From Bradyrhizobium elkanii USDA 76 (GTDB taxonomy: Bacteria; Pseudomonadota; Alphaproteobacteria; Rhizobiales; Xanthobacteraceae), in NCBI RefSeq assembly GCF_023278185.1, contig NZ_CP066356.1:1728001-1792000 (forward strand): a stretch of 64,000 nt of DNA. The letters are read 5' to 3'. Shown here piece after piece: positions 15,252 to 31,839 of the stretch. A model generated the notes under the pieces. The model worked only from the letters and a program-made list of their open reading frames with translations. It was not told the origin of the DNA and ran no database searches. The position numbers were made by a program, and so were the translations under genes. Numbering within the stretch: position 1 is the stretch's first letter; every line of letters begins with the position of its first letter.

Positions 15252-15252
15252 C

Positions 15253-15384: not shown

Positions 15385-15545
15385 CGCGCCAACACTGGAC
15401 CAGCCGAACAAGACGACCATTCCCGGATGAACGCCTTCGCGCGAGGGGCGTGCCGGCGACGCGATTGATCGGGATCCTCCGTTAGGAACATTGCCATTCT
15501 GTCGCGGTTCTCGAAAACGCCGCATGGAGCGGTGAGGAGGACGTT

Positions 15546-15890: not shown

Positions 15891-15993
15891 GGCCGCTCTG
15901 ATGGCGGGCCGCCAGGAACGGCGGCGGCCCGCGCTCAGCAGGAATGTCTGATCCGCGGGGCACGCGGTCAGCGGCCATCGATCGCGTCGGCCG

Positions 15994-16212
15994 TCAGAGA
16001 CCGATGCTGGCCACGGCCGCTTCCGCGACGCCCTTCGCGTCGAGGGCGCCGGTCTTGCCGATCTCGATGACCTTGCGGGCCACGATCTCGCAAAGCGGAT
16101 CGTTGCGATCGACCAGACCCATCGAATGCAGCGCCAGGCTGAACGCCCTGTTGAAGAGCTCGATTTGCTCCGGCGTGTATTCGCCCGTCTTCAGCAAGCG
16201 ATTGATCGGCAT
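15994..16212 (-). CDS. conserved hypothetical protein
   Basis: 72 residues from the ATG at MPINRLLKTGEYTPEQIELF. It is mostly helical: FNRAFSLALHSMGLVDRNDPLCEIVARKVIEI. No signal peptide or membrane segment. The family plan EYTPEQIExLxxAF with a short acidic turn DRNDP looks like a conserved rhizobial protein but I know no function. A GTG/ATG six codons upstream is possible. Confidence 0.6.
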   Translation of the reverse strand: MPINRLLKTGEYTPEQIELFNRAFSLALHSMGLVDRNDPLCEIVARKVIEIGKTGALDAKGVAEAAVASIGL

Positions 16213-16392
16213 TGTCGAGCCCCACAGCAAGCAGCCAAGTGACGTGGCTATAGCACGGAACCGTCGCGATCGGCACCCGGCTTTCCCTGCGCCCTCTACA
16301 ACAGAGGCGGAACGAACAGCAGAGCTCGGGCAAAATCATGTCGCGAGAATGCGATCGTGTGACCCACAAGAAACCGCGCCACACACTCAGTG

Positions 16393-16511
16393 TCGTCCTG
16401 GCGAAAGCCAGGACCCATTACCCCAACTCTCAATTGTTGCGCGACGCTGGGGCCACGATCCCGTTCATCATCAAATGCGGTGGTTATGGGTCCTGGCTTT
16501 CGCCAGGACGA
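16393..16511. repeat. REP-like intergenic palindrome with 26-base perfect inverted arms
   Basis: The arms at 16393-16418 and 16486-16511 are exact reverse complements (26 of 26). Each arm is itself a hairpin, GTCCTGGC-GAAA-GCCAGGAC, with a GAAA tetraloop. The 67 bases between are AT/GC mixed and not coding. This composite structure is typical of repeated intergenic elements in Bradyrhizobium and Rhodopseudomonas (from memory). It lies between the hypothetical gene and the end of flgD. Confidence 0.85.
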
Positions 16512-16573
16512 CGATACAATGTAGTGTGCGCGGTCGCCCGCTCAACGCGCAGCTACGGATCGTGGCAATGTGC

Positions 16574-17287
16574 TCAGCTCGAGCCTGTCGCCCCGCGCAC
16601 CACGCGCTTGATCTTGTCGGTGGTGTAGGTCTGCCCGCCGATCGAGAGCAGCGGCGGGGAGGCGGTCAGGTCGACGGAATCGACGACGCCCTGCACCTCG
16701 GTCGAAATGGCGATCGGGTTGCCCTTGGAATCCTTGCCGGTGGCGGTCAGCGTGTAGGTGCCGGCCGGCCATTGCGTGCCGTCATTGCCCTTGCCGTCCC
16801 AGACGAAGCTGGCATTGCCCTGCTTCAGGCTGAAATTGCCGGAATAGGCGGTCTGGCCGGTCGCGCTGGTGATCGTGATGGTGGCGCTGGTGGCTTGCGG
16901 GGACACCAGATTCCAGGTCGCGGATTTGTCGAACTGCGTCTTGCTGCCGTCGACCGCGACCGTGTTGCCGACATAGACCAGCGCCTGGGTCGACTGCGCG
17001 CTCTTCTCGATCTCGATCAGCGACTTCAGCTGATCGTTGGATTTCAGCTGCTGCTCGACGCCCGCGAACTGCACCAGCTGCTGGGTGAACTGGTTGGTGT
17101 CGAGCGGGTCGAGCGGGTTCTGGTTCTGCAACTGCGTGGTCAGCAGCGTCAGGAAGGTCTGGAAATTGTCGGCGATGCCCTGCGAGGAGGTCGTCAGGCC
17201 GCTGCCGCTGCTGCTTCCAGAGTTCGTTCCGTTGCTGGTGCCCGGTGCTGAGACGACGGGCGTCGGCATGGTTGCATCGACTGCCAT
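16574..17287 (-). CDS. flgD: flagellar hook assembly protein FlgD
   Basis: 237 residues from the ATG (MAVDATMPTP) preceded by AAGGAG. The N-terminal FlgD domain has FQTFLTLLTTQLQNQNPLDP and TNQFTQQLVQFAGVEQQ; the C-terminal beta part has the FLIG-like VWDGKGNDGTQWPAGTYTLT. FlgD is the scaffold that caps the growing hook. It follows fliK by about 10 bases on the same strand, a common pairing since both act in hook building. Confidence 0.93.
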   Translation of the reverse strand: MAVDATMPTPVVSAPGTSNGTNSGSSSGSGLTTSSQGIADNFQTFLTLLTTQLQNQNPLDPLDTNQFTQQLVQFAGVEQQLKSNDQLKSLIEIEKSAQSTQALVYVGNTVAVDGSKTQFDKSATWNLVSPQATSATITITSATGQTAYSGNFSLKQGNASFVWDGKGNDGTQWPAGTYTLTATGKDSKGNPIAISTEVQGVVDSVDLTASPPLLSIGGQTYTTDKIKRVVRGATGSS

Positions 17288-17297
17288 GGTGAACTCC

Positions 17298-18887
17298 TTA
17301 CACTCTGATATCGACGCCGCCGAGGGCGCCGGTTGCACGGCCGTAGGAGCGGCCCGCCGCTGCGGCGGGAACGCTGTCCTCCTCGGTGACGATCAAACGA
17401 TGGGCGTTCGGATTGGGCTGGCCATTGTTGTTCTGGCCCGACTGCGACTGGTCGCGCAGGCTGAACTGCAATCCGCCATTGCCGGTCGAGAGGCCGGCAT
17501 TGTCGAGCGCGCGCTGCAGCTGGTTGGCGTCCTGGCGCAGCATCGACAGCGTTTCCGGCCGTTCGACGGTGAGATGCGAGGTGACCTGGCCGTTGCGATC
17601 GACATCGATGCGGACATCGATGCGGCCGAGCTCGGCGGGGTCGAGCCGGATCTCGAAGCGACTCTTGCCGCTCTTGGCGGAGGCGGCGATCTGCATCGCA
17701 AGCCCGCTGAGCGGCACAGCGGCGCTTTGCGCGGCGTTGGTCACGGTCAATTGTGCGGTCGCGGACGGCGTCGTCTGGGTGGTCGCGGGTTGCGGCTGCA
17801 GTGCGTTCGCCGCCTGCGCGCTGGGATCGGGGGTCGTGAGCTGGGCCTGCGCGGCGGCGTGGCCGCCGGCCGCCGGCGTCGGCGCGGCATTGCCGTCGCC
17901 GCTCGCGTCGGCCTTGATGGCATCGGCCGCACCGTCTGCGGCGGCCTTCGCCTTGCCGGCAACGGCGGCCGGCTGCACGGCGGCGGGAACGATGTTGGTC
18001 GGAGCAGCCTGCGCGGTGTTGGCGCTGCCCGCCGCGGCGCCGTCCTGGTCGGCCGGCATCGTTGCTGTCGCGTCCTTCGTGGTGACCTGTGTCTTGGCCT
18101 GCATTGTCGTCTTGGTGGCGGGCGTTCCGGCGGCAACCGTGGCGGCGAATGTCGCATCGCCGCTCGCTGTCGCAGCGCCCGAAGCCGTTGCCGCATCGCC
18201 GGGGGTGATGATTTGCGCGTCGGTCTTGACGCCGGCCGCCTTGGCGACCTTGTCGGCGTTCGCCGTGGTGGCCGCGGCCGCTGCGGTGTCGGCGCCGGCA
18301 GGCGCGCCGCTGCCGCCCGCCGCGCCGGTGCCGGCGATGGCCGAGCTTGCCGCAATGGCCGCTGCCGCGATCGCGAGCGGTGCGGCCGGCTGGTCGGACG
18401 GCGCGGTGGCCGCCGGTGTCGGGGCAGTCGCCGGTGTCGCGGCAACGGGAGCAATCACGGCATTCACGGTTGCCGCACCGGGATCCTGCTGCGCAGCGGG
18501 CTGCGTCGCGTCCGGCTGGTCACTGGTCGATTTGGCATCGGAGCTCGATTTCGAGTCGTCCGATTTCGACTTGGTCTTGGACGGCGCGTCGCTGTCGCTG
18601 TCGACCTTGTTGTCGTCCCGCGAACTGCCGGAATCCCGCGACGTCCTGTCGGGGCCCGCGCTGGTGTCGCGGGGGCGCGCGTCGGTCGTCGAGGGCGGAT
18701 CGTCGGACCGCCGCGAGGGCGCCGGCTGGGAGTCGTAGCGGCTGTCGTTTGCGGACGCAGTGTTGCTGTCGACCAGCGCGGCAAAGCCGTCGTTCCCCGC
18801 CTGCGAAGCGGGATCGGGCCGCGACGACCGCTGCGTCGCACCCTGAAAAGACCGGCCTGCCAATGCTTCCGACGTGACGCTGACCAC
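17298..18887 (-). CDS. fliK: flagellar hook-length control protein FliK
   Basis: 529 residues from a GTG (MVSVTSEALAGRSFQ) that has GAGGG six bases upstream. Most of the protein is alanine/threonine/proline-rich low complexity, as in FliK rulers. The C-terminal Flg_hook domain (about the last 130 residues) holds SRFEIRLDPAELGRIDVRID and LTVERPETLSMLRQDANQL followed by RALDNAGL. FliK measures hook length and switches export specificity. It is transcribed just ahead of flgD. The low-complexity body produces long open frames on the other strand, which I disregard. Confidence 0.88.
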   Translation of the reverse strand: MVSVTSEALAGRSFQGATQRSSRPDPASQAGNDGFAALVDSNTASANDSRYDSQPAPSRRSDDPPSTTDARPRDTSAGPDRTSRDSGSSRDDNKVDSDSDAPSKTKSKSDDSKSSSDAKSTSDQPDATQPAAQQDPGAATVNAVIAPVAATPATAPTPAATAPSDQPAAPLAIAAAAIAASSAIAGTGAAGGSGAPAGADTAAAAATTANADKVAKAAGVKTDAQIITPGDAATASGAATASGDATFAATVAAGTPATKTTMQAKTQVTTKDATATMPADQDGAAAGSANTAQAAPTNIVPAAVQPAAVAGKAKAAADGAADAIKADASGDGNAAPTPAAGGHAAAQAQLTTPDPSAQAANALQPQPATTQTTPSATAQLTVTNAAQSAAVPLSGLAMQIAASAKSGKSRFEIRLDPAELGRIDVRIDVDRNGQVTSHLTVERPETLSMLRQDANQLQRALDNAGLSTGNGGLQFSLRDQSQSGQNNNGQPNPNAHRLIVTEEDSVPAAAAGRSYGRATGALGGVDIRV

Positions 18888-19246
18888 TGCCAACCCTCGT
18901 AAATGAGACTTCCAGCGTTTTGTCAGCAAGGAGTGGGCCAACCAGGGATGGCAATAAATAATGAGTTATTTCATATGGTTACTGGCTATCTGGGCCGGCT
19001 GGAGCGGGTTCCCGGCGGGTCTCCTTTTTGCCCGGCGGCAAGATTTGCCGTCCACGCGCGGCGCGGCAGAGCTTCCGCCGGATTGCCTCACCGGAATACG
19101 GCCTATATTAAAGGTGGCCTCCAACGCGTCCGAACCGACCGAACCGGCCTTGGATGTGTTCTAAGGCTCTCTGGACAAAAGGCTTTTTCCAATATCGTCG
19201 CGGAGCGCGTAAGCTCGCCGCGACAGTGATCAATGACCGCTTAAAG

Positions 19247-20443
19247 ATGCTCAACAGTCTGGATCTCGAAGGCCGCCCTGAAGATACACGGATCGTCGTT
19301 GCCATGTCCGGCGGCGTCGACTCGTCGGTGACGGCTGCGCTGTTGAAGTCGCAGGGCTATGACGTGGTCGGGATCACGCTGCAGCTCTACGACCACGGCG
19401 CTGCAACCCATCGCAAGGGCGCCTGCTGCGCCGGCCGCGACATCCATGATGCGCGCAATGTCGCCGAACGGATCGGCATCCCGCATTACGTGCTCGATTA
19501 CGAAAGCCGCTTCAAGCAATCGGTGATCGACAATTTCGCCGACAGCTACGCGCTCGGCGAGACGCCGGTGCCGTGCATCGAGTGCAACCGTTCGGTCAAG
19601 TTTCGCGATCTGCTCGCGACCGCGCGCGAGCTCGGCGCGCAGGCGCTCGCCACTGGCCACTATGTCGTCTCGCGGCGGCTTGCCGACGGATCGCGCTCGC
19701 TCACTTGCGCCGCGGATGCCGATCGCGACCAGAGCTATTTCCTGTTCGCGACCACGCGCGAGCAGCTCGACTTCCTGCGCTTCCCGCTCGGCGACATGAC
19801 CAAGCCGCAGACCCGCGAGCTGGCGCGCCGCTTCGATCTCGAGGTCGCCGACAAGCAGGACAGCCAGGACATCTGTTTCGTGCCGACCGGCCGCTACACC
19901 GACATCATCGGACGGCTGAAGCCGAATGCGATCGCGCCGGGCGACATCGTCGATCTCGACGGTCATGTGATCGGCCAGCACCAGGGCATCGTCCATTTCA
20001 CCGTCGGCCAGCGCAAGGGGCTCGGCATTGCCTCCGGCAGCCCGCTCTATGTGGTCAAGCTCGATGCGGCGACGCGCCGTGTCGTGGTCGGGCCGCGCGA
20101 GGCGCTGCGGATGGATCGCATCGCGCTGCGCGACGTCAACTGGATCGGCGACGGCGCGCTGGATCGCGTGATCGGCGAGGGCATCGAGATCTATGTCCGC
20201 GTGCGTTCGACGCGCGCGCCGCAGCCGGCGTGGCTCCGCGCCGCCGATGGCGGCTATGAGGTCGAGCTCGTCGCCGGCGAGGAGGGCGTGTCGCCCGGCC
20301 AGGCCTGCGTGTTCTACGACGCAGCCTCCGGGCAGGCGCGTGTGCTCGGCGGCGGCTTCATCAGGAGTGCAAGCGCAAGCCGCGCAATACGCGCCGCGAC
20401 GCAGGACGCGTTGGCGCCGATTGCAGAAGCGGTTCGCGGATAG
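19247..20443 (+). CDS. mnmA: tRNA-specific 2-thiouridylase MnmA
   Basis: 398 residues. It shows the PP-loop SGGVDSS (21-27), the catalytic cysteine in PVPCIECN, the second reactive cysteine in SQDICFVP and the GHYV/QSYFLF motifs. It thiolates U34 of tRNA Lys, Glu and Gln using persulfide sulfur. I chose the ATG of MLNSLDLEG; upstream in-frame sequence has no family similarity. The methyltransferase gene starts 25 bases after its stop and may be in the same transcript. Confidence 0.95.
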
Positions 20444-20468
20444 ACAGAAGAAACTTCGGGGCAGGGGA

Positions 20469-21107
20469 ATGGCTGGGGACATCGACCGCGAAGGGGTCGA
20501 AAAAGCGTATGGCCGCTGGGCACCGATCTACGATCTGGTGTTCGGCAAGGTGTTCGATCAGGGCCGTCAGTCGACGATCGCGGAAGCCGATCGGATCGGC
20601 GGCCGCGTGCTCGATGTCGGCGTCGGCACCGGGCTCTCGCTGTCGGAATACAAGCGCACCACGAAACTATGCGGCGTCGATATTTCCGAGCCGATGCTGC
20701 GGCGGGCGCTCAAGCGCGTGCGCGCGCAGGGCCTCAGCAATGTCGAGGCGCTGGCGGTGATGGACGCCAAGAATCTCGCATTTCCGGATGCGTTCTTCGA
20801 CGCGGTGGTCGCGCAATATGTCATCACCGCGGTGCCGGATCCCGAGGCGACGCTCGACGATTTCATCCGCGTGCTGAAGCCCGGCGGCGAACTGATCCTA
20901 GTCAATCACATCGGCGCCGAGAGCGGCCCGCGCCGCGTCTTCGAGCTCGCCTTCGCGCCGCTGGCGCGGCGGCTCGGCTGGCGTCCGGAGTTTCCGTGGG
21001 AGCGGCTGACCAATTGGGCGGCGAAGCATGGCGGGGTCAGCCTTGCGGAGCGCCGCCCGATGCCGCCGATGGGGCATTTCTCGCTGATCCGCTTCCGCAA
21101 ATCGTGA
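20469..21107 (+). CDS. pmtA: SAM-dependent methyltransferase, PmtA-like phosphatidylethanolamine N-methyltransferase
   Basis: 212 residues from an ATG preceded by GCAGGGGA. Motif I is VLDVGVGTGLSLSEY, then CGVDISEPMLRRAL, and the post-motif region has FFDAVVAQYVITAVPDPEATL. The N-terminus YGRWAPIYDLVFGKVFDQGR is shared with Rhodobacter/Sinorhizobium-type PmtA enzymes that make phosphatidylcholine. The size is right for that class. The substrate is inferred; a quinone-type methyltransferase is the alternative. Confidence 0.72.
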   Translation: MAGDIDREGVEKAYGRWAPIYDLVFGKVFDQGRQSTIAEADRIGGRVLDVGVGTGLSLSEYKRTTKLCGVDISEPMLRRALKRVRAQGLSNVEALAVMDAKNLAFPDAFFDAVVAQYVITAVPDPEATLDDFIRVLKPGGELILVNHIGAESGPRRVFELAFAPLARRLGWRPEFPWERLTNWAAKHGGVSLAERRPMPPMGHFSLIRFRKS

Positions 21108-21160
21108 GGTTGCGGCGATTTTGACGGGGAACATCGGCGCGCCGTCATGGTTTTCTCGTC

Positions 21161-21526
21161 ATGAGGATCAATCGAGCACTCGCTTTATCCTGTGTGCTGA
21201 TAATGGCACCCGCTGTGGCCGTGGCGCAGGCGCCGCCGACATCAGCCACACCGCCGGCCCAGACCGCGCCACCGGCGCCGTCGCGCACCGCCGCAAATTG
21301 CGCGCCGCAGCAGCCTTCGCATCCTGGTGCCGTGGTTCCGGAAGGAACCACCACCGGGCAGAGCAGCCAGCCGCTGGGCGACAAGCTCGCCAAATCCGAC
21401 GGGGTGTTGTGCCCGCCGGCCGGGGTCGATCCCGAAATGCGCGCGCCGACCCCGCAAGGCGGCAACACGCCGGTGATTCCACCGCCCGGCAGCCCCGGCG
21501 GCGACCAATCGGTGAGGCCGAAATAG
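21161..21526 (+). CDS. proline-rich exported protein, unknown function
   Basis: 121 residues. The signal peptide MRINRALALSCVLIMAPAVAVAQ (cleavage after AVA) precedes a proline/threonine/alanine-rich region and a C-terminal part with LAKSDGVLCPPAGVDPEMRA and PPPGSPGGD. Two cysteines (NCAPQQP and VLCPP) may form a disulfide. Bradyrhizobium genomes often carry such a gene near this tRNA (from memory). No function can be assigned. Confidence 0.65.
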   Translation: MRINRALALSCVLIMAPAVAVAQAPPTSATPPAQTAPPAPSRTAANCAPQQPSHPGAVVPEGTTTGQSSQPLGDKLAKSDGVLCPPAGVDPEMRAPTPQGGNTPVIPPPGSPGGDQSVRPK

Positions 21527-21642
21527 CCTCTGTCTGCAATAAGTTGCTGCCACGTCCGGGTTTGCTTGACAGGCGCGCATGCCACTCTTTATATGCCGCG
21601 CGTTCGCACCCGCGGCTCACCGGCCGCCGATGGCGAGCCCAT

Positions 21643-21719
21643 GGCGGGGTAGCTCAGCTGGTTAGAGCACGGGAATCATAATCCTGGGGTCGGGGGTTCG
21701 AGTCCCTCCCCCGCTACCA
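21643..21719 (+). tRNA. tRNA-Met (anticodon CAT), elongator type
   Basis: 77 bases including encoded CCA. Acceptor GGCGGGG pairs with CCCCGCT (one G-T), the D arm is GCTC...GAGC, the anticodon arm CGGGA-ATCATAA-TCCTG presents CAT, and the T arm is GGGGG-TTCGAGT-CCCTC. The TCATAAT loop and GGGGTC variable arm resemble elongator tRNA-Met; tRNA-Ile2 with lysidine is the alternative for a CAT anticodon. A defence-rich island begins directly downstream. Confidence 0.92.
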
Positions 21720-22230
21720 GATCCAGCATAACCCCTTGATTTCCCAGACTTGGCCGATGGAAGTCGACGCGAGGGATGTCTCATTGATACATCCGAGGCG
21801 GCCGCTGATCAAATTCCACGGCCCAACCCACCGCACGACATAACGCCGCTCAAGATCAACGTGCCGCCCTAGCGGCGGCGGCTTATCGCCGCCATCCGTC
21901 CTTTAGTCATTGCAGCAGCTGCAGGTAGCGACAGGCATGGGCACCGTTTTTCAGGCGGGCAAATCGACGGCGTTGATCGTGCTATCGTGGGAGCTCACTC
22001 TCTTCTCCTACATCGGTTAGATGGGCGGGGATCTGAGCTCGTGAAGTTGGCGGAGGGCGCACTTGCTCCAAGCGAAGCGCACTGCATGCCGTTTTATGCC
22101 CAGGTCATCGTGCAGGAAGGTAAGAGTCGGAATTTCGATTCCTACAAATCGAGGACGTGGCACGCTAACGTTCCCGGGTGATGGTTACCGTGGGCGCGGT
22201 CGCGACCGCATGCTCTCTCTATCCTTGGGC
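21720..22230. other. about 500 bases without a convincing gene, left edge of the accessory island
   Basis: No ORF here has coding character; one 64-codon frame at 21987-22181 has no recognisable family. A perfect 14-base palindrome, GCGGTC-GCGACCGC at about 22197-22210, is the only structure seen before the hairpin at 22231. Because it directly follows the tRNA 3' end, it is where an integrated element would begin. Confidence 0.4.
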
Positions 22231-22256
22231 GGGAGGCATTAGTCACTAATGCTCCC
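22231..22256 (+). other. strong hairpin upstream of the reverse transcriptase gene
   Basis: GGGA-(G bulge)-GCATTAG-TCA-CTAATGC-TCCC: eleven base pairs with one bulged G and a three-base loop. It lies about 265 bases before the retron-type reverse transcriptase, in the place where a retron msr-msd RNA is usually encoded. It has no T tract, so it is not an obvious terminator. Confidence 0.55.
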
Positions 22257-22400
22257 TGTCACCTAAGACTGCTGCTGATCCCGAAGCCCGATTTGGCGGA
22301 AGCGTTGATCTGCGAGCGTCGGCGACCTAAGGCCAAATATCCATGTGAATTTCCCAAGGAGGACGTGGCGCCAGCGCGATGCGCTGCTATTGAAGATGCT

Positions 22401-22521
22401 ACGAGGTCTCCCCTCGCATGCGCGCTGTCGTAACTGCGGCGTAAGAGCGAAAGTCTAATCAAGGATCGTGCGCGCCACGTTGCTCGCTGAATGCCTGGCG
22501 TGATTGGAAGGGAGACCTCGT
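22401..22521 (+). ncRNA. candidate retron-type structured RNA bounded by 12-base inverted arms
   Basis: ACGAGGTCTCCC at 22401-22412 is exactly complementary to GGGAGACCTCGT at 22510-22521, enclosing 97 bases directly ahead of the reverse transcriptase; the second arm includes the ribosome site and part of the GTG start. Paired outer arms (a1/a2) around msr-msd upstream of the RT are the retron layout. The interior is short for a retron RNA, so the true RNA may start further upstream (a hairpin lies at 22231-22256), or this may be a translational control stem. Confidence 0.4.
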
Positions 22522-24118
22522 GCCCAGCCTTGCATCGTTCTTCGGCGCTCCTATCCGGGTCACCGTTCCAAACGAGCTCACGTGCGAAGCCGAGCTGCTG
22601 AAGTTTCTTGCTCTGTCGACAGCCGAACTCAAGAAGATTTGGTGGTTTCGGGGCCGGATGTATCAGAAGTTCGAGATTTCGAAAGGCGGACAAAAGAAGC
22701 GCGTCATAAGCGCACCGGACCGCCGATTGAAGATGCTGCAGACAAAGATCGCGTCCTCGCTCGCGTCGATATACAGACCGCGGAATCCCGTTCATGGCTT
22801 TGTGGACGGCCGCTCGGTCAAAACGAACGCTACGGCTCATCTCCGGAGCAAGTTCGTGTTGAACTTGGACATCGAAGGCTTCTTTATGGCCATCACGGAA
22901 GGACGCGTGTCCGGCCTAATGGGTGCGCTCGGCGTCGACGGTCGAGTCGCTGAAATCCTGGCGCGGATCTGCTGCAACGAGGGTGTCCTGCCCCAAGGCG
23001 CGCCTAGCAGTCCAGTAATTTCCAACATGATCTGCTTCCGGATGGACAAGGAATTGCAGACAATCGCGAAGGAAAGCCGCTGCATCTACACCAGGTATGC
23101 CGACGATATCACTTTCTCCAGCTACCAGCCGCTGACCTTGCTATTCGAAGGACCCCCGCCGCCGGCCGGGAATTTCCCGCCCGATTTGCTCAAGGATCGG
23201 CTTCGCGGAGCTTTCCGATCCAACGGCTTCGCGATCAATCCGCAGAAGATCCACTACGCCGACAAGCATTCGCGCCGAACAGTGACCGGCCTCAAGATCA
23301 ACGAGTTCGTCAACGTCGACCGAAAATACGTACGAAACACCCGCGCAGCCTTGTTCGTGACCGAAACACGAGGCGCTGCGGTCGCCCAGAAGATTCTCAA
23401 AGACAAGTATGGTCGCGAAGCGACGCTCGCGTCGCATCTTCGCGGACGGATATCCTGGGTGGGGCACATCAAGGGACCTTCGGACCCGATTTTCCGTGGT
23501 CTGGCCTCGCGCTACAACAAGCTCTTCCCTTCCGAGAAACTCGAAATTCTGCCAACGAATTTGGAGATCAGGGAGCGCGCGGTGTGGGTAGTCGAGCATT
23601 GGGCAGATGACGCAGCGGAAGGCAGCGCGCAGGGCACGGCTTTCTTCTTGAAGTCAGTGGGTCTCGTTACGGCCTGGCATTGCGTGGAGGGGGCGACAGA
23701 GATCGCGGTCTATCACCCCAGCAAGACTTCGAATAAATTCAAGGTGACGGTCGCCAAGAACGACGCGCATCGGGACTTGGCCGTGCTCGCACACGAAATA
23801 CCCGTCACCGAGTACTACGAGTTCGACATCTCGAAACGCACATTCAAGGTCGGCGACAATACGACGGCGATTGGATTTCCGAGCTTCGGCCCAGGCGACA
23901 AGATCAACGTCCGATCCGGGTCGATAACCTCGTTGCCCACGAAGAGCGCCGTCCCGATGATCGAGGTGACGCAAAAGCTCTCGCAAGGCATGTCCGGCGG
24001 TCCGTTGCTCGATGATGACGGCGCGGTCGCCGGTGTCAATCATAAAGGCGGACCAGGAGAGGCCAGAGATTTCGCCGTGCACGTGAACGCGCTGACCGAC
24101 TGGCTGAGCAAGTCGTAG
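22520..24118 (+). CDS. retron-type reverse transcriptase fused to a trypsin-like serine protease
   Basis: 532 residues from GTG (AAGGGA eight bases upstream). Residues 1-340 are a retron-class RT: RVISAPDRRLKMLQ (53-75 area), NPVHGF at 89-94 (retron region X position), LNLDIEGFF (115-122), LPQGAPSSPVISN (157-169), catalytic YADD at 193-196, and VTGLKIN with the retron VTG triplet at 255-257. Residues about 355-532 are a chymotrypsin-fold protease with the triad H387 (TAWHCVE), D419 (AHRDLAVL) and S492 (GMSGGPLL). Both halves look catalytically complete. Retrons with a protease effector joined to the RT are catalogued among anti-phage retrons; the model is that phage disturbs the RT-msDNA complex and releases the effector. 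The subtype number is not assigned here. It converges on the Argonaute operon with an 81-base gap. Confidence 0.9.
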   Translation: MPSLASFFGAPIRVTVPNELTCEAELLKFLALSTAELKKIWWFRGRMYQKFEISKGGQKKRVISAPDRRLKMLQTKIASSLASIYRPRNPVHGFVDGRSVKTNATAHLRSKFVLNLDIEGFFMAITEGRVSGLMGALGVDGRVAEILARICCNEGVLPQGAPSSPVISNMICFRMDKELQTIAKESRCIYTRYADDITFSSYQPLTLLFEGPPPPAGNFPPDLLKDRLRGAFRSNGFAINPQKIHYADKHSRRTVTGLKINEFVNVDRKYVRNTRAALFVTETRGAAVAQKILKDKYGREATLASHLRGRISWVGHIKGPSDPIFRGLASRYNKLFPSEKLEILPTNLEIRERAVWVVEHWADDAAEGSAQGTAFFLKSVGLVTAWHCVEGATEIAVYHPSKTSNKFKVTVAKNDAHRDLAVLAHEIPVTEYYEFDISKRTFKVGDNTTAIGFPSFGPGDKINVRSGSITSLPTKSAVPMIEVTQKLSQGMSGGPLLDDDGAVAGVNHKGGPGEARDFAVHVNALTDWLSKS

Positions 24119-24199
24119 AGATGTCCGGACCATGGCTTCAAGGCGCCCTTGGGCGGACTCAGGCGCCTGGCGATACCCACAACGACTTAGGCGATTTCG

Positions 24200-25621
24200 C
24201 TACATGAAGAAGCGAAACTGATACGGTGTCGAACCCAGGCCGTCCATGCGCTTGACGACGCGCGCGAGCACTTTCGCGTAAGCCATCGTCACCGGCAGCA
24301 TGTCGTACAGCGCGTCGTTGTTCCAATCCATCTTCGCGAGAGCGAGAGCCGAACGCGCCGTGTCGTCCCAACTACCATGGCCCGCGTGGCGCACCAGACG
24401 GATCGGGCGCGGCGTGCTACGACCTCCTTGATAATATGAGCGTTCGGCAACGCCCTTCACGTCGCCGTGCATCCAAAGCAGGCACTCCCGATCCCCGAGC
24501 GGGATCAGCGTGCCGCGTTCAACTGGATAGCCGAAAGGCTTTCCTTTAGCGCCGCCTTGCCGGTCGCGTTCGATCCTGACGCCGCGCCAGCCCACGTCCT
24601 CAACGACCTGCACCAAGTCGACCGCCTCGCAGAGATGCAACGCCTCCATGCAGCCGTCGATCTCCTCCTTCTTGAACTCTGTAGTCTTGTGCACCGTGAC
24701 CCTGCGAGGCGTGCGGCCCGAGTGCCTTCTGCGATAGAGGTCCAACGATCTGCTCATGACACGGAACATCTCGGTCCGGGACATGAAAGGGTTTTCTCGC
24801 TGAACGTCGATTTCGTGGGCGTCGTAGGCGACAAACTCGAGACCGGCACCTTCGGCGTCGAAGACCTGACTGCAGCATGTTACGAAGCGCGGCCGGTCCG
24901 ATTCGGTCGGACGCACCGCGTAGGAGAGACCGATATAGGCGGCCTCAGGGTCCGTGTCAGCGAGCTTCCAGGGGACGCCTCCCGCCTTCGCGTAAATCGC
25001 AAGTCCGATGCGCCACATGACGCTTGCGCGGTCCGGATAGGCGAGCGCGCGGTCTTCGCGTACCAATTGGATCGGAATGCGTCGCGCGGCGGTCGCCGCC
25101 TTGAGGTGGTCGCGGAGGTCGAAATCGTCGCCGGCGGACCCCACGAAGCCCGCGGCCCAGCTTTGCGGGATGTAGATGAAGACAATGTCGAACGCATCCC
25201 GACGCGCCTCGAGAGATTGGATGGCGCGAATCAGCCGATCCGCCAACACGACGTGGGGCCTAGCCGAGTCCTTCATTTCGAACTCCAGCCGATCGTCCAA
25301 CTCGAAGTGGCAATCCTTAACGGCGCCTCGCATATCGAGATTGAACGCCTTGCGGAAGCCGGGCCAGGCCGGGAGGTAGTCCTTGCGTTCGGTCGCCTTG
25401 AACTCGGCCGCGAGTTCTTTCATGAAGCCGTAGAGTCGCGCCCCCTGCCGGGCCGGTGCGATCGTCGCGATCCGAATGGGGTTGGGGACTAGGCCTGACG
25501 AATAGGGACCAAACCGCAACAGCCCGCGCAGGGGGTGCAGGTCGACGTCGGATGTTCGCTCGGGATGGAATGCGAGCTCGGCTTCCGGGATGAAAAGGTG
25601 AGGCGATATCTCGCTCGTCAT
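24200..25621 (-). CDS. short prokaryotic Argonaute (MID-PIWI), SPARSA subunit
   Basis: 473 residues from the ATG overlapping the SIR2-APAZ stop (ATGA, 25618-25621). Length and order fit short pAgos: an N-terminal segment (LHPLRGLLRFGPYSSGL), a MID domain with VFIYIPQSWAAGF and DHLKAATAARRIPIQLV (guide 5'-phosphate pocket region), then PIWI with AAYIGLSYAVRP and RVTVHKTTEFKKEEIDG. In nucleolytic Argonautes the position after IG is an aspartate; here it is Leu-Ser, so the PIWI is inactive for cleavage, as expected for short pAgos. With its SIR2-APAZ partner it should form a guide-dependent sensor that triggers NAD+ depletion. In-frame sequence upstream of this ATG is the antisense/overlap of the SIR2 gene and is not part of the protein. 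Confidence 0.92.
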   Translation of the reverse strand: MTSEISPHLFIPEAELAFHPERTSDVDLHPLRGLLRFGPYSSGLVPNPIRIATIAPARQGARLYGFMKELAAEFKATERKDYLPAWPGFRKAFNLDMRGAVKDCHFELDDRLEFEMKDSARPHVVLADRLIRAIQSLEARRDAFDIVFIYIPQSWAAGFVGSAGDDFDLRDHLKAATAARRIPIQLVREDRALAYPDRASVMWRIGLAIYAKAGGVPWKLADTDPEAAYIGLSYAVRPTESDRPRFVTCCSQVFDAEGAGLEFVAYDAHEIDVQRENPFMSRTEMFRVMSRSLDLYRRRHSGRTPRRVTVHKTTEFKKEEIDGCMEALHLCEAVDLVQVVEDVGWRGVRIERDRQGGAKGKPFGYPVERGTLIPLGDRECLLWMHGDVKGVAERSYYQGGRSTPRPIRLVRHAGHGSWDDTARSALALAKMDWNNDALYDMLPVTMAYAKVLARVVKRMDGLGSTPYQFRFFM

Positions 25622-27360
25622 GGGCGGCCTCTTCCTGAGTAAGCTGTCGTATCGTCGAGCCTGAAGGCCGCATCCACGCGCGCGCTGATGCCGAGGGCCA
25701 AGATATCGCGCTCCGGGCACGCGAACAGCGTCGACCAGAACGAGAGAAGGGCATTGAGCGCCGGATTGTAGCGCCTCACTGTGCGCTCGCGGGCAAAATC
25801 GGTCGCCGTGGTTCTGTTCCCCTGCGTGATGCCTTCGAACACGGTGCGCGGCTCGAGCAGAAGCCAGAGCCGCTCGTCCGCCCAATCCAGCCGGATGCCC
25901 AGGCCCTCCCGCCAACTCAGTTCGGGATGCTTCGGTACCGTTCCACCGAGGCTGCCGGTCAGTTTCTTGAGCGGCCCCCACTTCGCGTCGTCGATCGAGG
26001 CCGGGGTCAAGAGATCGCTGCTTCGGCGACGATCTGCAGTCATCGCATGCGTTCGGGTCAGCGCGCGGGTCAACGCCTCACGGAGAAGCCCACGCTCTTG
26101 GCTTTCGTAGCGCAATCGGCGGACTTCGATCGCGTGCAGGTCGAAGCTTTCAATGTCGTAGGCCGAAAGCACGGCTCGCACGTTGGCGTCGGAGCCGAAA
26201 GCGAGTACTCCGGCTCGTGACCGGGTCGCGAGCACCGGCAGGGCTGCGGCTTCGATCGCCGACCTGACCTCCGCCACGCCGCCGATGCCGCATCCGACGC
26301 GGCGACAAACGGTCGGCGTTTCGATCAATTCGAGTGCATTGAGCCGGACCACTGGAAAACCGCGCTTGCCGGTTGGTCGCGGTGCGGGCGACCAGATTCG
26401 TCGCTCCGAAGCGAGTTCGTCCAAGGCCTTAGTGTCCAGATCCTCCGCCAGGCGAACGAGGTCGCGCAAGACCTCGTCGAAATTCTCGATCGGCACCAGC
26501 CCGCCGTCGACGCCTTTGCGGGCGGCGGCCGCCAAGAGCCGTTTGACGCGCGGCAACGGCGGGTCCTCGCCGCGATGGAGCCAGAAGATACCGGCAGGAA
26601 AAGGGGTGTCGCGCTCGAGAGCCGTTTCCAGGGTGTCCATGATGGAGTCGTCGCGGCCGCTGTAGCCAGCTACGATCAGGCCCCACCGGCCGCAACTGTC
26701 GATCAACAGCGACCTGAGTTTCGCATCCTGTTCGCGCAGTTCGTCTCCGGTGTTCTTCAGTCTGCGCGATCGAAAGTCGCCGTGCATTTTGACTTCGACG
26801 GGCCAACGCCCCTCGTCGATGACTTGGCGCCCAAGACTTCTGGTCTCGATCGCCACCGTCGTCAACTGACCAGTTCCGCCGTAGACCTTCGCGCAGCCGT
26901 CAGCGATCAACGGATCGAAGTTGGTCGTCCAGACGAGACGAGCACGTCCGGCCCGCATCATTGTCGCAAGAGCGACGTGTCCGTAAGACGGCTTGGCGCC
27001 GCTCACCTTCGACGCGATGTAGGTTCGACGGTCCGCCTCGCTCGGATAGACGGCTTCGAAGAGAGCCGCATACTCGTCGGGAGCGCCGGGCGGCGGCAAA
27101 TTCCCGATGCCATCGACGAATGACTGCAGTTCGCGCCGGACGGCTGGGTTGGCAAGGTCGGCGACCATTTTCGGGGAGACGCGCCGCTGACTTATGTAGA
27201 GCTGTTGCTTGAACTCCCAGATCATGTCCCACGCCGTCGGGATGCCGGCGGCCGCCGATCCACCGGCTCCGAGCAACCACATCAGATTTCCGCCCCGTTG
27301 CGAGAAGCGGCGCGCAAAATCATCCGCAGCGACGGCTGGATAGGTCGAATCGGCTGACAT
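25618..27360 (-). CDS. SIR2-APAZ NADase effector of a short Argonaute (SPARSA) system
   Basis: 580 residues. The SIR2 domain (about 15-305) has the NAD-binding LLGAGGSAAAGIP (29-41), VWTTNFDPLIADG (143-155), KMHGDFRS with catalytic H193, and GYSGRDDSIMDTL (232-244). The remainder (about 310-580) is the APAZ region that replaces the missing N-PAZ half of Argonaute (for example KHPELSWREGLGIRLDWAD and TTATDFARERTVRRYNPALN). It overlaps the Argonaute gene by four bases, so the two are made in equal amounts. The known mechanism (Geobacter, Caballeronia and Paraburkholderia systems) is RNA-guided recognition of invader DNA followed by NAD+ hydrolysis and cell death. All SIR2 active-site motifs are intact. 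Confidence 0.93.
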   Translation of the reverse strand: MSADSTYPAVAADDFARRFSQRGGNLMWLLGAGGSAAAGIPTAWDMIWEFKQQLYISQRRVSPKMVADLANPAVRRELQSFVDGIGNLPPPGAPDEYAALFEAVYPSEADRRTYIASKVSGAKPSYGHVALATMMRAGRARLVWTTNFDPLIADGCAKVYGGTGQLTTVAIETRSLGRQVIDEGRWPVEVKMHGDFRSRRLKNTGDELREQDAKLRSLLIDSCGRWGLIVAGYSGRDDSIMDTLETALERDTPFPAGIFWLHRGEDPPLPRVKRLLAAAARKGVDGGLVPIENFDEVLRDLVRLAEDLDTKALDELASERRIWSPAPRPTGKRGFPVVRLNALELIETPTVCRRVGCGIGGVAEVRSAIEAAALPVLATRSRAGVLAFGSDANVRAVLSAYDIESFDLHAIEVRRLRYESQERGLLREALTRALTRTHAMTADRRRSSDLLTPASIDDAKWGPLKKLTGSLGGTVPKHPELSWREGLGIRLDWADERLWLLLEPRTVFEGITQGNRTTATDFARERTVRRYNPALNALLSFWSTLFACPERDILALGISARVDAAFRLDDTTAYSGRGRP

Positions 27361-27448
27361 GCGAGTATTCTAGTTGTAGGACTTGCCTTGTACGGCTTAG
27401 GATTGGCCTTCTGTCATCCTGCCCACCGGAATCTTTTGGTCGCTCCCG

Positions 27449-27715
27449 TCACCTCGACTTCGCGCGACGTACGCCTTCGCCCGTCTTGTCACTCGCGAAG
27501 GTGAACTCGATATCGCATTCGACTTCGAGATATTGCCGCAGCGTCTGCAGCACGGCCTTGCGGCGCGGATCGGTTCGATCGGATGGCTTGGCCGTCTCGA
27601 ACGTTGCGATGGCCTTCCGCGACACGCCAGCCTTCTGCCCAAGTTCGGTTTGACTCCATCCGAGCAGGGCGCGCGCTGCTCGAAGCAGGGAGGGGGTGAG
27701 CAGGTGGTCGTCCAT
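27449..27715 (-). CDS. XRE-family HTH regulator upstream of SPARSA
   Basis: 88 residues. HTH core at about 8-65: LLRAARALLGWSQTELGQKA, then GVSRKAIATFETAK, and a short C-terminal tail with LRQYLEVECDIEFTF. It is 88 bases upstream of the SIR2-APAZ gene on the same strand and faces the HNH operon across a gap with two clear palindromes. A role as repressor of both divergent operons is likely from position. It could alternatively belong to the mobile element rather than to the defence system. Confidence 0.85.
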   Translation of the reverse strand: MDDHLLTPSLLRAARALLGWSQTELGQKAGVSRKAIATFETAKPSDRTDPRRKAVLQTLRQYLEVECDIEFTFASDKTGEGVRRAKSR

Positions 27716-27906: not shown

Positions 27907-28218
27907 ATGGTGGATTACGAGAAACATCTGCGTAGCGCCGCTTGGCGGCAGATTCGCCAGCGTGCGATCGCGGCCGCCGGCCATCGCTGCGTGCTCTGCG
28001 CGGCGACCGAGCAGCTCGAGGCGCACCATCGCACCTACGACAACCTCGGAGATGAGCGCGATGGCGACCTCACGGTGCTGTGCCACGAGTGCCACGAGGT
28101 GGTGACCAGCATGCTGCGCGCCCGTCGTTACGCGGCCAAGCCGGCCTCGTATGCCAACATCGTCCGCAGCATCGCCGAGACGGCACCGCTCTTCGATCCC
28201 ACCGAGGGGGAGATCTGA
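27907..28218 (+). CDS. HNH nuclease-like zinc protein
   Basis: 103 residues. The region 9-66 has the HNH plan: RSAAWRQIRQRAIAAAGHRC, then CVLCAATEQLEAHHRTYDN and LTVLCHECHEVV. Two CxxC pairs for zinc and the HH pair of the beta-beta-alpha metal site are present. Such small HNH proteins are frequent in phage and mobile elements. It is the first gene of a tight plus-strand operon; the next gene starts two bases after its stop. The target is unknown. Confidence 0.78.
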   Translation: MVDYEKHLRSAAWRQIRQRAIAAAGHRCVLCAATEQLEAHHRTYDNLGDERDGDLTVLCHECHEVVTSMLRARRYAAKPASYANIVRSIAETAPLFDPTEGEI

Positions 28219-28220
28219 TC

Positions 28221-28796
28221 ATGGCGGTGGAGATGATCACCCTCCGTCTGGTCGGCGTCGGCCCCATGCTGATGCACTCCAGCAGGCTCGCCGACCCGTT
28301 CGACCCCACCGCGAAGGCGCTCAAAAAGCTCACGGGGAAGCAGCACAAAACCGACGCTGACCATCACCGGATCGCGGAGCTCGAGTGGCACGGATCGCTG
28401 TGGCTTCACGAAGGCCGGCCGTGTCTGCCGCCGTCCGCGATCAAGGGTGCGCTCGTCAACGGCGCCAAGACGGTCCGCAAGGGCAAGGCGACCAAGGCGG
28501 CCTTCGTCGCCGAGGGTCCCGCGATGCTCGAGTACGATGGCCCGAAGACGGTCGAAGAGCTCTGGCAGGACCCGCGCTTCCGCCACCGCGAGATCGTGCG
28601 CGTCGACGACTCGCGGGTGGCGCGCACGCGTCCGTGCTTCGACGGCTGGAGCGCGACCGTACGCGGCTCGTTCATCACCACCATTATTAACCGGGAGGAC
28701 GTCGTGAGCTACTTCCGCATGGCGGGTCCCTTCGGCATCGGCGACCACCGTCCCGACTTCGGTCGCTTCCTGATCGAGGAGTCGCAGCTCGAATAG
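28221..28796 (+). CDS. phage-type hypothetical protein with RAMP-like motifs
   Basis: 191 residues from the ATG two bases after the HNH stop. The sequence LRLVGVGPMLMHSSRLADPF, HRIAELEWHGSLWLHEGRP, LPPSAIKGALVNGAK, a run ARTRPCFDGWSATV and a C-terminal GPFGIGDHRPDFGRFLIEE match a protein family I recall from many phage genomes (LMHxxRLADP..., W, GxGDxRPxFGRF). PxSxxKGAL and hGxGxxRPxxGRF resemble the RAMP fold motifs of Cas5/6/7 and Cmr proteins, suggesting a single-strand nucleic-acid binding role. Function is inference; no CRISPR array or other Cas gene is nearby. Confidence 0.6.
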   Translation: MAVEMITLRLVGVGPMLMHSSRLADPFDPTAKALKKLTGKQHKTDADHHRIAELEWHGSLWLHEGRPCLPPSAIKGALVNGAKTVRKGKATKAAFVAEGPAMLEYDGPKTVEELWQDPRFRHREIVRVDDSRVARTRPCFDGWSATVRGSFITTIINREDVVSYFRMAGPFGIGDHRPDFGRFLIEESQLE

Positions 28797-28865
28797 TCTT
28801 GGCATGGCTCGACACCGCGAGGCTAGGCGTGGTCCGGCACGGCGTGACGTGACGGGGCGTGTCCC

Positions 28866-28905
28866 GGCGAGGCAGGGCAGGGTCCGCCAAGGACCCTCCC
28901 TCGCC
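28866..28905 (+). other. long GC-rich hairpin between operon genes
   Basis: An inner stem AGGGTCC-GCCAA-GGACCCT is extended by an outer GGCGAGG / CCTCGCC pairing, with an asymmetric internal bulge. It sits in the 177-base gap between the RAMP-like gene and the next ORF. Only a weak T stretch (CCTTTTC) follows, so it may be an attenuator or processing site rather than a full terminator. Confidence 0.5.
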
Positions 28906-28973
28906 TAACCTTTTCAAATTCCGCATCTCAACATCACGCGCGGCCTGCCGCGCGAATGACGGAGCTTTGCCCG

Positions 28974-29417
28974 ATGAAAGAAGGCGAATTCCCGGACGGC
29001 GAGGCGCTGCCTCCGGTGCTCTTCTACTGGCGCACAAAAACGGCTGAATCCTTCGACGAACGCGCTCGCTCCGAGGTCGCCAGCTTCGTCGCCGGCATCT
29101 CCGCCACGATGCCCGAGTGGCGTGCGGTGATCCGCGGCGACGCTGCCGCCGCCATCGGCATCGTCATCGGACGTCGAATCCCCGAGCGCATCGGCCTGCG
29201 CGTCGATCTCAGCATGACAGTGTTGCTGGCCTGCGCCTTGTTTGATCCCGCCGCGGCGATGGTGCTGTCGCACACGCTCGCCCGCATGCCGATCGAGACG
29301 CGCGAGCGCACGCGCCTCTCGGCATCCTGGTCGATGCACGAGATCTGGCTCGGCAGCCGCCGTGCCGGCGCCCGTGTTCCCAAGACGCCGCCCCGGCTGA
29401 CGGGAGGTGGGTCGTGA
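28974..29417 (+). CDS. hypothetical protein of the AAA-protease operon
   Basis: 147 residues from ATG 28974, which has GGAG eight bases upstream; a second ATG at 28956 lies right after a perfect 7-base-pair hairpin (28937-28954). It begins MKEGEFPDGEALPPVLFYWR and has a helical middle SEVASFVAGISATMPEWRAV and AAAIGIVIGRRIPERIG, suggestive of a small soluble helical protein. The stop overlaps the next start (TGATG). I do not recognise the family; co-conservation with the downstream protease would be the best clue to its role. Confidence 0.6.
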   Translation: MKEGEFPDGEALPPVLFYWRTKTAESFDERARSEVASFVAGISATMPEWRAVIRGDAAAAIGIVIGRRIPERIGLRVDLSMTVLLACALFDPAAAMVLSHTLARMPIETRERTRLSASWSMHEIWLGSRRAGARVPKTPPRLTGGGS

Positions 29418-29566
29418 TGGTGCAGCCGACGAGCGACCTGCATGCCGATTTTTCCGCCTTGAACGCGTCCTTGATCGTCGTCGCCAGCGACAACGAGCAG
29501 GACTTCGCCGCGGCGCTTGGCTACCCGAACGAGCGCCTCGGGTCCGATCCTCTCATCGAGATCTAG
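29417..29566 (+). CDS. 49-residue protein between hypothetical and AAA-protease genes
   Basis: MVQPTSDLHADFSALNASLI then VVASDNEQDFAAALGYPNER and a tail LGSDPLIEI. The ATG overlaps the previous stop and has GGGAGGTGG upstream; the next gene begins two bases after its stop. The coupling on both sides makes it credible. No family is recognised; it is too short for catalysis and could be an adaptor or antitoxin-like partner of its neighbours. Confidence 0.5.
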   Translation: MVQPTSDLHADFSALNASLIVVASDNEQDFAAALGYPNERLGSDPLIEI

Positions 29567-29568
29567 AC

Positions 29569-31839
29569 ATGAACGAGACCACGAGCATGTCGAGTGTCTT
29601 TGGGCCCCGTAACGGCGGTACGCACCGCCCGGAGTCCTTCGCCGGCACCGGCATTGGACCCATCGAGCGGCGGGCTTACGGGCAGGCTTGGCGCGATGCC
29701 TTGCGCTTCCGGTGGAACCTCGCCGTGGGCGACGATCGGCCGCCTATCGCCCGGTCGGGCGGCTTCGCCAGTCTGACGCGCTTGGCGGATGTCGATGGCG
29801 ACACTGGCTTCGAGGAGAATGCAAGCCGCGAGGGATGCCCCCCGAGCCCGGCGCGAATTGCCGCGGCTCTGCTGCTCGCCCGCGCTTTCGACGCCGCGCC
29901 GGACGCTGCGCGGGACTTGATCTGCGGCGGCGCTCCCGTTGTCGTCGACATCGCCGACGGCGCGATGCTCGACGCGCTTAAAGGCGGGTGGCGCGGGATG
30001 TTTTTCGACGACGCGCTGCGTATGATCGACCTGGTCAAGACCGCTCCCGGCCGTCGCGACGGTCTCGACGGCGCCTATATCGTGCTGAGGGAGCCGCTCA
30101 AAGGCGCTGCCAAACAGCGGCTGGAGCGCGTCGCTGCCGACATGTGCGCCTACGCGCTGCCCTTCGTGGCGTTCTCGTCCAACGGCCGCGCCTGCCTTCC
30201 GAAAGTGCTGAACGAAGCGGCCCGGTACCGGATCGAGTTGCCCATGCTCGATCCCGCGACGGTGTCGCGCACCATCCGCGCCGTCACCGGCATCAGGACG
30301 GCGGTCGATGTGCCGGCGGAGACGATGCGCGATGTTGGTGTAGGTGACCTCGCAGCGGCGATTCGGTTCGACCGCACGCCGGAAGAATGCGTCGACGAGC
30401 TGCACCGTCTCGCCGCCTCGAAGAGGGCCGAACGGCCGTCGCGGGGGCTGGCGCTCTCCGAGATCCATGGCATGGCTGGTGCGCGCGCCTGGGCTGACGA
30501 TGCGATCGCTGATCTCGCCGCCTGGCGACACGGCGAGATCCCCTGGGATGCGGTCTCGAGCGCCGTGATGCTCGCTGGGCCACCCGGCGTCGGCAAGACG
30601 CTGTTCGCAGAGGCGTTCGCGCGTAGCGCGTCAGGCGAGGATTCGAAATCAGGCATCCCGCTGATCGTCTGCTCGTATTATTCCTGGCAGGCAGAGGGGC
30701 ACTTAGGCGATTTCCTGGCGGCGATGCGCCGAGACTTCGCCTCCGCCCGGGCTCAGGCGCCCTGCGTGATGCTGCTCGAGGAATGCGATAGTTTCGTCGA
30801 CCGTCGCGCCGTCAAGCACTCGCACTCAGACTACGTCAGGAATTGCATCAACGCGCTGCTTGAGGAGGTTGATGGTGTGCGCCGGCGGGAGGGCGTCTTC
30901 CTGATCGGCTGCACCAACGAGGTCGAGGCTTGCGATCCCGCGCTGCTGCGGGCGGGCCGCTTCGAGAACGTGGTGCGCATCAGTCCGCCCGATCAGGACG
31001 AGCTCAAGAAGATCTTCCGGGTTCGGTTGAAGGGCGATCTGGTCGGCGTGGACATCTCCACCGTCGTGATGTCGGCAGCTGGCATGACCGGCGCCGACGC
31101 GGAGCGCGCGGTGAAGGACGCACGCCGTGTGGCGCGGCGGGAGAACCGCGAACTCAGGCTCGACGACCTCCGTCTTGCTCTCGTCGGCGACCACGACGTT
31201 TCCGGCAAGCTGCGCTGGAGGACGTCGATCCACGAAGCGGGCCACGCGGTGGTCGATGTGCTCCGCTTCGGCCCCGACGGCGTCGTCGCCAACACGACGC
31301 GCACGGACCGGCGGCTCGGGATGTCGATGCGTACCACCCGCCAGGTCTTCGAAGGCACGGCGAGCGATTATAGGTCACGTATCGAAGTCTTGCTCGCCGG
31401 CCGTGCCGCCGAGGAAGTCCTGCTCGGTGAGGCGTCCCACGGCGCCCAACAGGATCTGGCGGAGGCCACCAGGCTGAGCTGCGCGATGTTAGGCGGCCTG
31501 GGTTTGGCGGGACCGTCGCCCCTGACGCACCTCGGCGACCCGCGCCATGCGGAGGAATTTCTCCGCCACGTCGATATTCGCGCCGCGGTCGGCATCGAGC
31601 TTGCCGAGGCTGACCGTGCCTGCCATGACCTGCTCGAGGGCAACCGGACGGCGTTGATCGCGGTGGCGCGCCGGCTGTTCGAGCGGGGTAGCGTCGACGG
31701 CGCCGAAATCGCCGCGCTGCTCGAGGCCGAGCGCTCGGCGGCAGCAGACGCGGAGGGCGCCCGGGGAGAGGACGATGCTCCATTTTCGGGCGAGCAGGGC
31801 GGCACTGTGATCGCTTTTCCGGAACTCAGTCGCGATTGA
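29569..31839 (+). CDS. soluble AAA+ zinc metalloprotease, FtsH-like, in a mobile-element operon
   Basis: 756 residues from the ATG (MNETTSMSSVF). The N-terminal 320 residues are unlike FtsH and have no membrane segments. The AAA+ module carries Walker A GPPGVGKT, Walker B CVMLLEECDS and the second region of homology with DPALLRAGRFENV. It is followed by the M41 peptidase motif HEAGHAVV (zinc-binding HExxH) and the conserved GRAAEEVLLGEASHGAQQDL region with the third ligand aspartate. It should unfold and degrade protein in the cytoplasm. FtsH normally has two N-terminal transmembrane helices; their loss and the phage-like neighbours suggest a specialised role in this element, for example activation or destruction of a partner. 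It is the last gene of the operon. Confidence 0.88.
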   Translation: MNETTSMSSVFGPRNGGTHRPESFAGTGIGPIERRAYGQAWRDALRFRWNLAVGDDRPPIARSGGFASLTRLADVDGDTGFEENASREGCPPSPARIAAALLLARAFDAAPDAARDLICGGAPVVVDIADGAMLDALKGGWRGMFFDDALRMIDLVKTAPGRRDGLDGAYIVLREPLKGAAKQRLERVAADMCAYALPFVAFSSNGRACLPKVLNEAARYRIELPMLDPATVSRTIRAVTGIRTAVDVPAETMRDVGVGDLAAAIRFDRTPEECVDELHRLAASKRAERPSRGLALSEIHGMAGARAWADDAIADLAAWRHGEIPWDAVSSAVMLAGPPGVGKTLFAEAFARSASGEDSKSGIPLIVCSYYSWQAEGHLGDFLAAMRRDFASARAQAPCVMLLEECDSFVDRRAVKHSHSDYVRNCINALLEEVDGVRRREGVFLIGCTNEVEACDPALLRAGRFENVVRISPPDQDELKKIFRVRLKGDLVGVDISTVVMSAAGMTGADAERAVKDARRVARRENRELRLDDLRLALVGDHDVSGKLRWRTSIHEAGHAVVDVLRFGPDGVVANTTRTDRRLGMSMRTTRQVFEGTASDYRSRIEVLLAGRAAEEVLLGEASHGAQQDLAEATRLSCAMLGGLGLAGPSPLTHLGDPRHAEEFLRHVDIRAAVGIELAEADRACHDLLEGNRTALIAVARRLFERGSVDGAEIAALLEAERSAAADAEGARGEDDAPFSGEQGGTVIAFPELSRD

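Follow-up and report, generated by a model that had tools for sequence, protein, structure and literature searches.

A type XI retron with a fused trypsin-like protease beside a short-Argonaute system in Bradyrhizobium elkanii USDA 76

The fusion gene and its class

We analysed a 64,000-nucleotide stretch of Bradyrhizobium elkanii USDA 76 (contig NZ_CP066356.1, positions 1,728,001 to 1,792,000, forward strand; hereafter the window) for a single open reading frame (ORF) of 532 amino acids, with a GTG start, that joins a reverse transcriptase (RT) to a trypsin-like protease; it is preceded by a predicted msr-msd noncoding RNA (ncRNA) and followed by the two genes of SPARSA, a short prokaryotic Argonaute (pAgo) system (Table 1). 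In Pfam, the fusion protein matched RVT_1 at residues 53-259 (E 3.5e-19) and Trypsin_2 at residues 372-506 (E 8.4e-19), and the H-D-S triad is complete (H387, D419 and S492, window numbering), in line with a preliminary description of this DNA that had noted one ORF with an RT bearing YADD and VTG and an intact trypsin-like protease. The protein matches the PADLOC profile RT-Protease_XI nearly from end to end (609 bits, ahead of RT-TIR_XII at 318 and RT-Toprim_I-C at 300), and we hence assign it to type XI retrons, a class that is said to stem from Mestre et al. 2020. It shares with this class a retron RT and a C-terminal trypsin-like protease in a single gene and a near full-length profile match, and we found no feature that sets it apart. 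Judged by its sequence, the retron is intact and consists of one gene; its class, type XI, is already catalogued and is no new kind.

In a tree of retron-type RTs and four group II intron RTs, with DRT (defence-associated RT) and Abi (abortive infection) RTs not included, type XI joined the I-C retrons (support 100/98), and the group II intron RTs fell outside the retron RTs (100/100). The preliminary description's retron-type RT is upheld by this placement and by the best PADLOC match; of the alternative that it had raised, an RT outside the retrons, the group II part fails in the tree, and the Abi part was not covered by it. A group II intron identity was rejected from the profile score as well (TIGR04416, 42 bits against a cut-off of 300), as was a DRT or Abi identity, the best 25 of 57 PADLOC families (E up to 0.001) being retron-type RTs plus RT_other and RT_outgroup; NCBIfam gave no DRT model for the fusion protein at E up to 1e-10.

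The RT motifs NAxxH, PQGxPxSP, YADD and VTG are kept in all 26 aligned type XI proteins, and the protease triad in 25 of them. The exception, a Kaistia copy (L017:5935-7599), is broken, its RT frame stopping after 371 residues, ahead of the protease; a separate ORF downstream of the interrupted frame also matches the type XI family. Ratios of nonsynonymous to synonymous substitution (dN/dS) are low in both halves (RT and protease each 0.09-0.18, in 15 pairs from six Bradyrhizobium copies), as for domains that are maintained and unlike chance expectation, and both domains are hence under purifying selection. In the B. rifense copy (L004:6001-7599), dS relative to the other five is ~0.9-1.0 for the protease and 0.26-0.45 for the RT, and its protease half looks to have been exchanged via recombination.

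The protease shares the trypsin-like HtrA/Deg fold with DegS, DegP and Deg2, a DegP trimer being among the structural matches, but is fused to an RT, has GMSGGP in place of the usual HtrA motif GNSGG, and forms the C-terminal end of the protein, with no PDZ domain among the Pfam matches. Lying in cis behind a linker whose length varies among the aligned proteins, it could be a self-processing or shut-off domain that cuts itself off the RT, or cleaves the retron complex, to limit the response. The triad and the selection would fit such a role equally well as that of an effector held in check by the retron, which we prefer (see below), and we judge self-processing improbable.

Table 1. Features of the retron and of the adjoining SPARSA genes (positions in the window)
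Feature	Position	Strand	Remarks
Predicted msr-msd ncRNA of the type XI retron	22399..22522	+	~124 nt; aligned across 22 loci; covariation exceeds each of 500 shuffles
a1 arm	22400..22415	+	pairs with a2; inverted repeat I1, 22401-22415 / 22507-22521
Candidate branching G	22416	+	first base past a1; invariant in 22 sequences
msr hairpin	22422..22442	+	7-pair helix; 100% of cells paired
msd hairpin, predicted msDNA template	22471..22502	+	7-pair helix; 94.3% of cells paired; 2 pairs changed on both sides
a2 arm	22507..22522	+	overlaps Shine-Dalgarno (22510-22515) and GTG start (22520-22522)
RT-protease fusion gene, type XI retron	22520..24118	+	PADLOC RT-Protease_XI, E 1.6e-183, residues 17-530
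Retron RT domain	22520..23539	+	residues 1-340; YADD 193-196, VTG 255-257
HtrA/Deg-fold protease domain without PDZ	23555..24115	+	residues 346-532
Short prokaryotic Argonaute of SPARSA	24200..25981	-	PADLOC pAgo_I, E 1.8e-198, match from residue 122
SIR2-APAZ effector of SPARSA	25618..27360	-	PADLOC Aga_SIR2-PNTD1-PNTD2, E 2.9e-193

The upstream msr-msd RNA

When the 500 bases upstream of the genes were compared pairwise, diverged loci shared the last ~120-145 bases, among the matches listed, and close relatives shared more. From 30 loci we took 26 upstream regions, omitting L063 and L066 (partial) and L064 and L065 (type I-C), and aligned 22 of these, 120-124 nt each, L059-L062 being too diverged (in L059 and L060, both missed by the covariance model described below, inverted arms with matching differences are visible by eye). 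The outer a1/a2 helix has 15 pairs, with 99.3% of the alignment cells paired and both-side changes in six pairs (22 rows); for the full structure, standard pairs occupy 98.3% of cells and both-side changes occur in eight pairs (18 cells). None of 500 shuffles reached any of five measures, and sliding the structure by 1-3 columns left 32-52% of cells paired, a comparison biased in favour of the structure, which was drawn from the consensus of the tested sequences. The window RNA has a folding z of -3.7 relative to shuffles. G22416 we take to be the branching base, a role carried over from known retrons.

In 20 of the 22 rows the last three bases of the a2 arm, which includes a Shine-Dalgarno-like GGGAGA, are the GTG start codon (GTA in L057 and ATG in L017). 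This overlap with the ribosome-binding site and start is as in a riboregulator, and would suit an RT that acts without retron-type multicopy single-stranded DNA (msDNA), in the manner of DRTs, with the upstream RNA as merely a translation regulator. Such an RT we regard as very improbable, given the retron motifs, the retron position in the tree, and the both-side changes in the msd hairpin, which would be superfluous for occluding a start codon.

The covariance model R1, whose training set includes the window RNA, scores 130.6 bits at the window. Outside the training set, it finds the RNA ahead of the RT at five of ten distant type XI loci (L061/L087, L062/L088, L094, L095 and L096), and at none of five loci with other retron-like RTs (L064, L065, L067, L068 and L070). 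Across 265 Bradyrhizobium genomes it matched ten places in nine genomes, all preceding a type XI RT gene (one truncated), and nine of the ten lie directly ahead of independently found type XI genes. At L103 (G893:C1:1560086-1560206), the ncRNA (111.6 bits) stands ahead of a stretch matching type XI RT residues 1-165 only, probably a decayed retron. Weak antisense matches of R1 at ten of its own places (E 1.2e-4 to 0.38), which long complementary arms would be expected to give, were not counted as RNAs. Rfam has no family for the window RNA at gathering or at E up to 1. PADLOC includes msr-msd models (PMC9252829), and the window RNA may already be among them, so that we do not present it as newly described. 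Nothing above shuffles emerged when 22000-24400 was scanned for promoters and terminators. Altogether, by comparison of the sequences, an upstream RNA with an msr-msd layout bounded by a1 and a2 is well-supported.

Distribution and neighbouring defence genes

At E up to 1e-60 the RT-Protease_XI profile also takes other retron types, with matches in a control genome; at E up to 1e-100, where none of 14 control genomes has a match, it gave 11 type XI copies in 10 of 265 genomes. The closest named copies of the fusion are from Bradyrhizobium, and the genome that holds the window (9.5 Mb, two contigs) has a second copy (C1:7255843-7257429), 89% identical and with its own RNA. Homology of the window to L001-L004 and L081 begins at 22334-22381 and stops at, or at most 10 bases from, the stop codon, limits that mark RNA plus gene as the unit. 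Three plasmid records matched at E up to 1e-60 and eight phage records at E up to 1e-20, none of the latter with a single place covering >80% of the query. The best of these, a 6.1-kb unannotated fecal phage, covers 78% of the query at 34.5% identity (residues 61-505, into the protease), and phage-labelled contigs may hold distant RT-protease relatives; one scan of viral_contigs confirmed no relative. No exact repeat of at least 14 nt of 21643-21780 (tRNA-Met and 61 bases beyond) occurs elsewhere in the window, and an integration site is therefore not demonstrated.

The retron gene ends 81 bases from the stop of the SPARSA pAgo gene (24200, minus strand), as pointed out in the preliminary description, and both SPARSA proteins have PADLOC matches. 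The two run tail to tail and are hence, by layout, separate transcription units and not one operon, and the 'cell-suicide' label given there to the locus is one that we would only infer. The type XI name, the upstream RNA and the recurring pAgo neighbours, all three missing from that description, are added by the present analysis. The true pAgo start probably lies ~87 codons inside the ORF 24200-25981; the homologous ORF in L089 has 506 amino acids, with the PADLOC match from residue 35. Upstream of the SPARSA genes, on the same strand, is a small HTH_3 protein (27449-27715), a possible regulator, and the defence genes adjoin a phage- or plasmid-like module at 27907-34165, with HNH-like, phrog_4652, AAA/peptidase M41, phage-type replication initiator and ParB-like proteins.

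Retron and SPARSA form a 5.2-kb block (22189-27435) common to the window and G877 (L089), at 89.6% identity. On the upstream side, where flanks were compared, the 5.7-kb flank of L089 has its best matches in the B. elkanii genome at 8.86 Mb and a weaker one at 1.87 Mb; the window's own position, 1.75 Mb, gave no match, and hence the pair moved, or was kept, as one block. G+C is 0.578 for the retron (22000-23999), 0.60-0.64 for SPARSA and 0.63-0.69 for 15000-21999.

A short-pAgo system lies within ~2 kb at seven of 32 distinct type XI loci (duplicates L090-L092 excluded). It is of the SIR2-APAZ kind in the window and L089, long SIR2-APAZ in L004, and restriction endonuclease (REase)-APAZ in L011 and L016, as well as, by homology, in L012, where the pAgo is interrupted at the contig end; L013 has a REase-APAZ gene (L013:4375-5688) with a pAgo remnant, whose match spans just 76 positions with one stop. 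None was found within 6 kb, where the contig allows, at 20 loci of the same class with other retron-like RTs (13 profiled as retron RTs, three among retron RTs in the tree and four unclassified). The contrast gives a Fisher p of 0.035, with the seven loci related (~three independent events), flank lengths that differ between loci, and a pAgo search profile built from four of these pAgos. Of the 265 genomes of the genus, 56 carry a pAgo (PDLC02377) and 10 a type XI retron; four have both, and in three of these the two are adjacent. Co-occurrence by itself was discarded as a signal (4/10 type XI genomes against 52/255 others, Fisher p 0.23, not significant). Among 15 genomes reached through loci, four have a pAgo (PDLC02376), beside the retron in all four, in G927 as a remnant only; two of the four hold another pAgo elsewhere. 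Adjacency thus holds in seven of the eight genomes where both were found, a figure that leaves out seven additional type XI loci and their genomes. We regard the pAgo association of type XI retrons as suggestive. The two could be functionally coupled, the protease licensing or removing the APAZ effector, for example, or the pAgo using the retron nucleic acid, so that one locus would have two nucleic-acid sensing routes. The three pAgo kinds (SIR2, long SIR2 and REase), the retron-SPARSA block in two differently flanked genomes and the adjacency fit coupling, but also fit ordinary defence-island clustering, and we think coupling very improbable.

Other defence genes adjoin some copies: Gabija (GajA, GajB) lies directly downstream of the retron at L007:7678-11896, the copies L008 and L015 have homologous genes next to them, and the L006 retron adjoins a type IIG restriction enzyme. 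Clustering of neighbours at 18 loci, profiled in part, found no gene common to all but the retron, the next cluster being APAZ proteins (six loci). This bears on whether the protease is the killer itself or a specific activator of a pro-toxin or pro-nuclease encoded elsewhere. Trypsin-like proteases are likewise fused to Avs, Lamassu, Hachiman and DRT defence proteins and pair with a proenzyme nuclease activated by site-specific cleavage (PMC12799240). In those pairs, however, the nuclease gene is a neighbour, typically upstream, whereas the 18 type XI loci, with neighbours profiled in part, have no such gene in common, and we consider the activator role unlikely.

A proposed msDNA-restrained protease

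We lean, with some reserve, towards an intact type XI retron in which msDNA would restrain the fused protease until a phage disturbs the msDNA, with abortive proteolysis as the outcome. The sequences show the two domains and selection on each, a conserved RNA with outer and msd helices, and the overlap of a2 with the start; msDNA synthesis, inhibition, trigger, substrate, abortive outcome and translational gating we infer. A transcript from an upstream start would carry the ncRNA and the RT-protease. As the a2 arm covers the Shine-Dalgarno and start codon, folding of the ncRNA is expected to restrain translation, a2 pairing thus limiting synthesis of the fusion. The RT would prime at the branching G and copy the msd hairpin (~22454-22506) into a short msDNA that remains attached to the msr RNA, and the RNA-DNA hybrid, bound by the RT, would keep the fused effector inactive, as in Retron-Eco2. 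A phage product that degrades, modifies or displaces the msDNA would release the protease, which would cut cytosolic proteins and halt growth before phage are made. Loss or alteration of the msDNA is the probable trigger, with cytosolic proteolysis as the probable output. HtrA-family proteases act as trimers and the DegP trimer is among the matches, which makes a trimeric retron-protease complex an attractive idea.

Retron-Eco2 (Ec67; type I-C, RT-Toprim) is the closest solved relative and likewise has a C-terminally fused effector, in a protein of 596 residues compared to 532 here. Its effector is a Toprim RNase, in contrast to the HtrA-fold protease of the window retron, and its authors propose that msdDNA covers the Toprim site, a block that phage DenB would lift (both from PMC12405507).

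Several points weigh against the msDNA-restrained protease. The inhibition step would be borrowed from other retrons, and no protease retron working through msDNA-held inhibition was reported in the literature that we searched, which left many subscription papers outside. The AlphaFold2 model of the fusion protein has a predicted template modelling score of 0.49, and hence does not settle the relative placement of the RT and protease domains. Type XI as a single clade has a tree support of just 62/18. Six of the seven msr hairpin pairs are invariant, so that covariation is no test of this pairing, and the lone-strand minimum-energy fold of the window RNA agrees with the drawn structure in the a1/a2 stem but differs from it in the pairing of the middle. 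R1 has no RNA match at the other five of the ten distant type XI loci (L059/L085, L060/L086, L063, L093 and L097), and within the genus it misses two of the 11 copies, those of G797 and G822.

To our knowledge, nucleases, NAD-consuming enzymes and membrane proteins make up the retron effectors for which killing has been demonstrated. The same search found no paper on a characterised protease-fused or type XI retron, nor any account of how a retron protease effector works, which agrees with the preliminary description of protease retrons as listed but little characterised; 'protease' and 'type XI' are absent from PMC12548924, and PMC13405049 lacks 'type XI' and has 'protease' solely as an inhibitor reagent. 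The window retron is a probable phage-defence unit, on present analysis, from a little-studied class. With the a1/a2 arms, branching-G candidate and msd hairpin mapped, msDNA can be tested for directly, the position of the start codon within a2 hints at a simple switch tying effector translation to RNA folding, and the recurring short-pAgo neighbours are a testable lead on cooperation of two defence systems.
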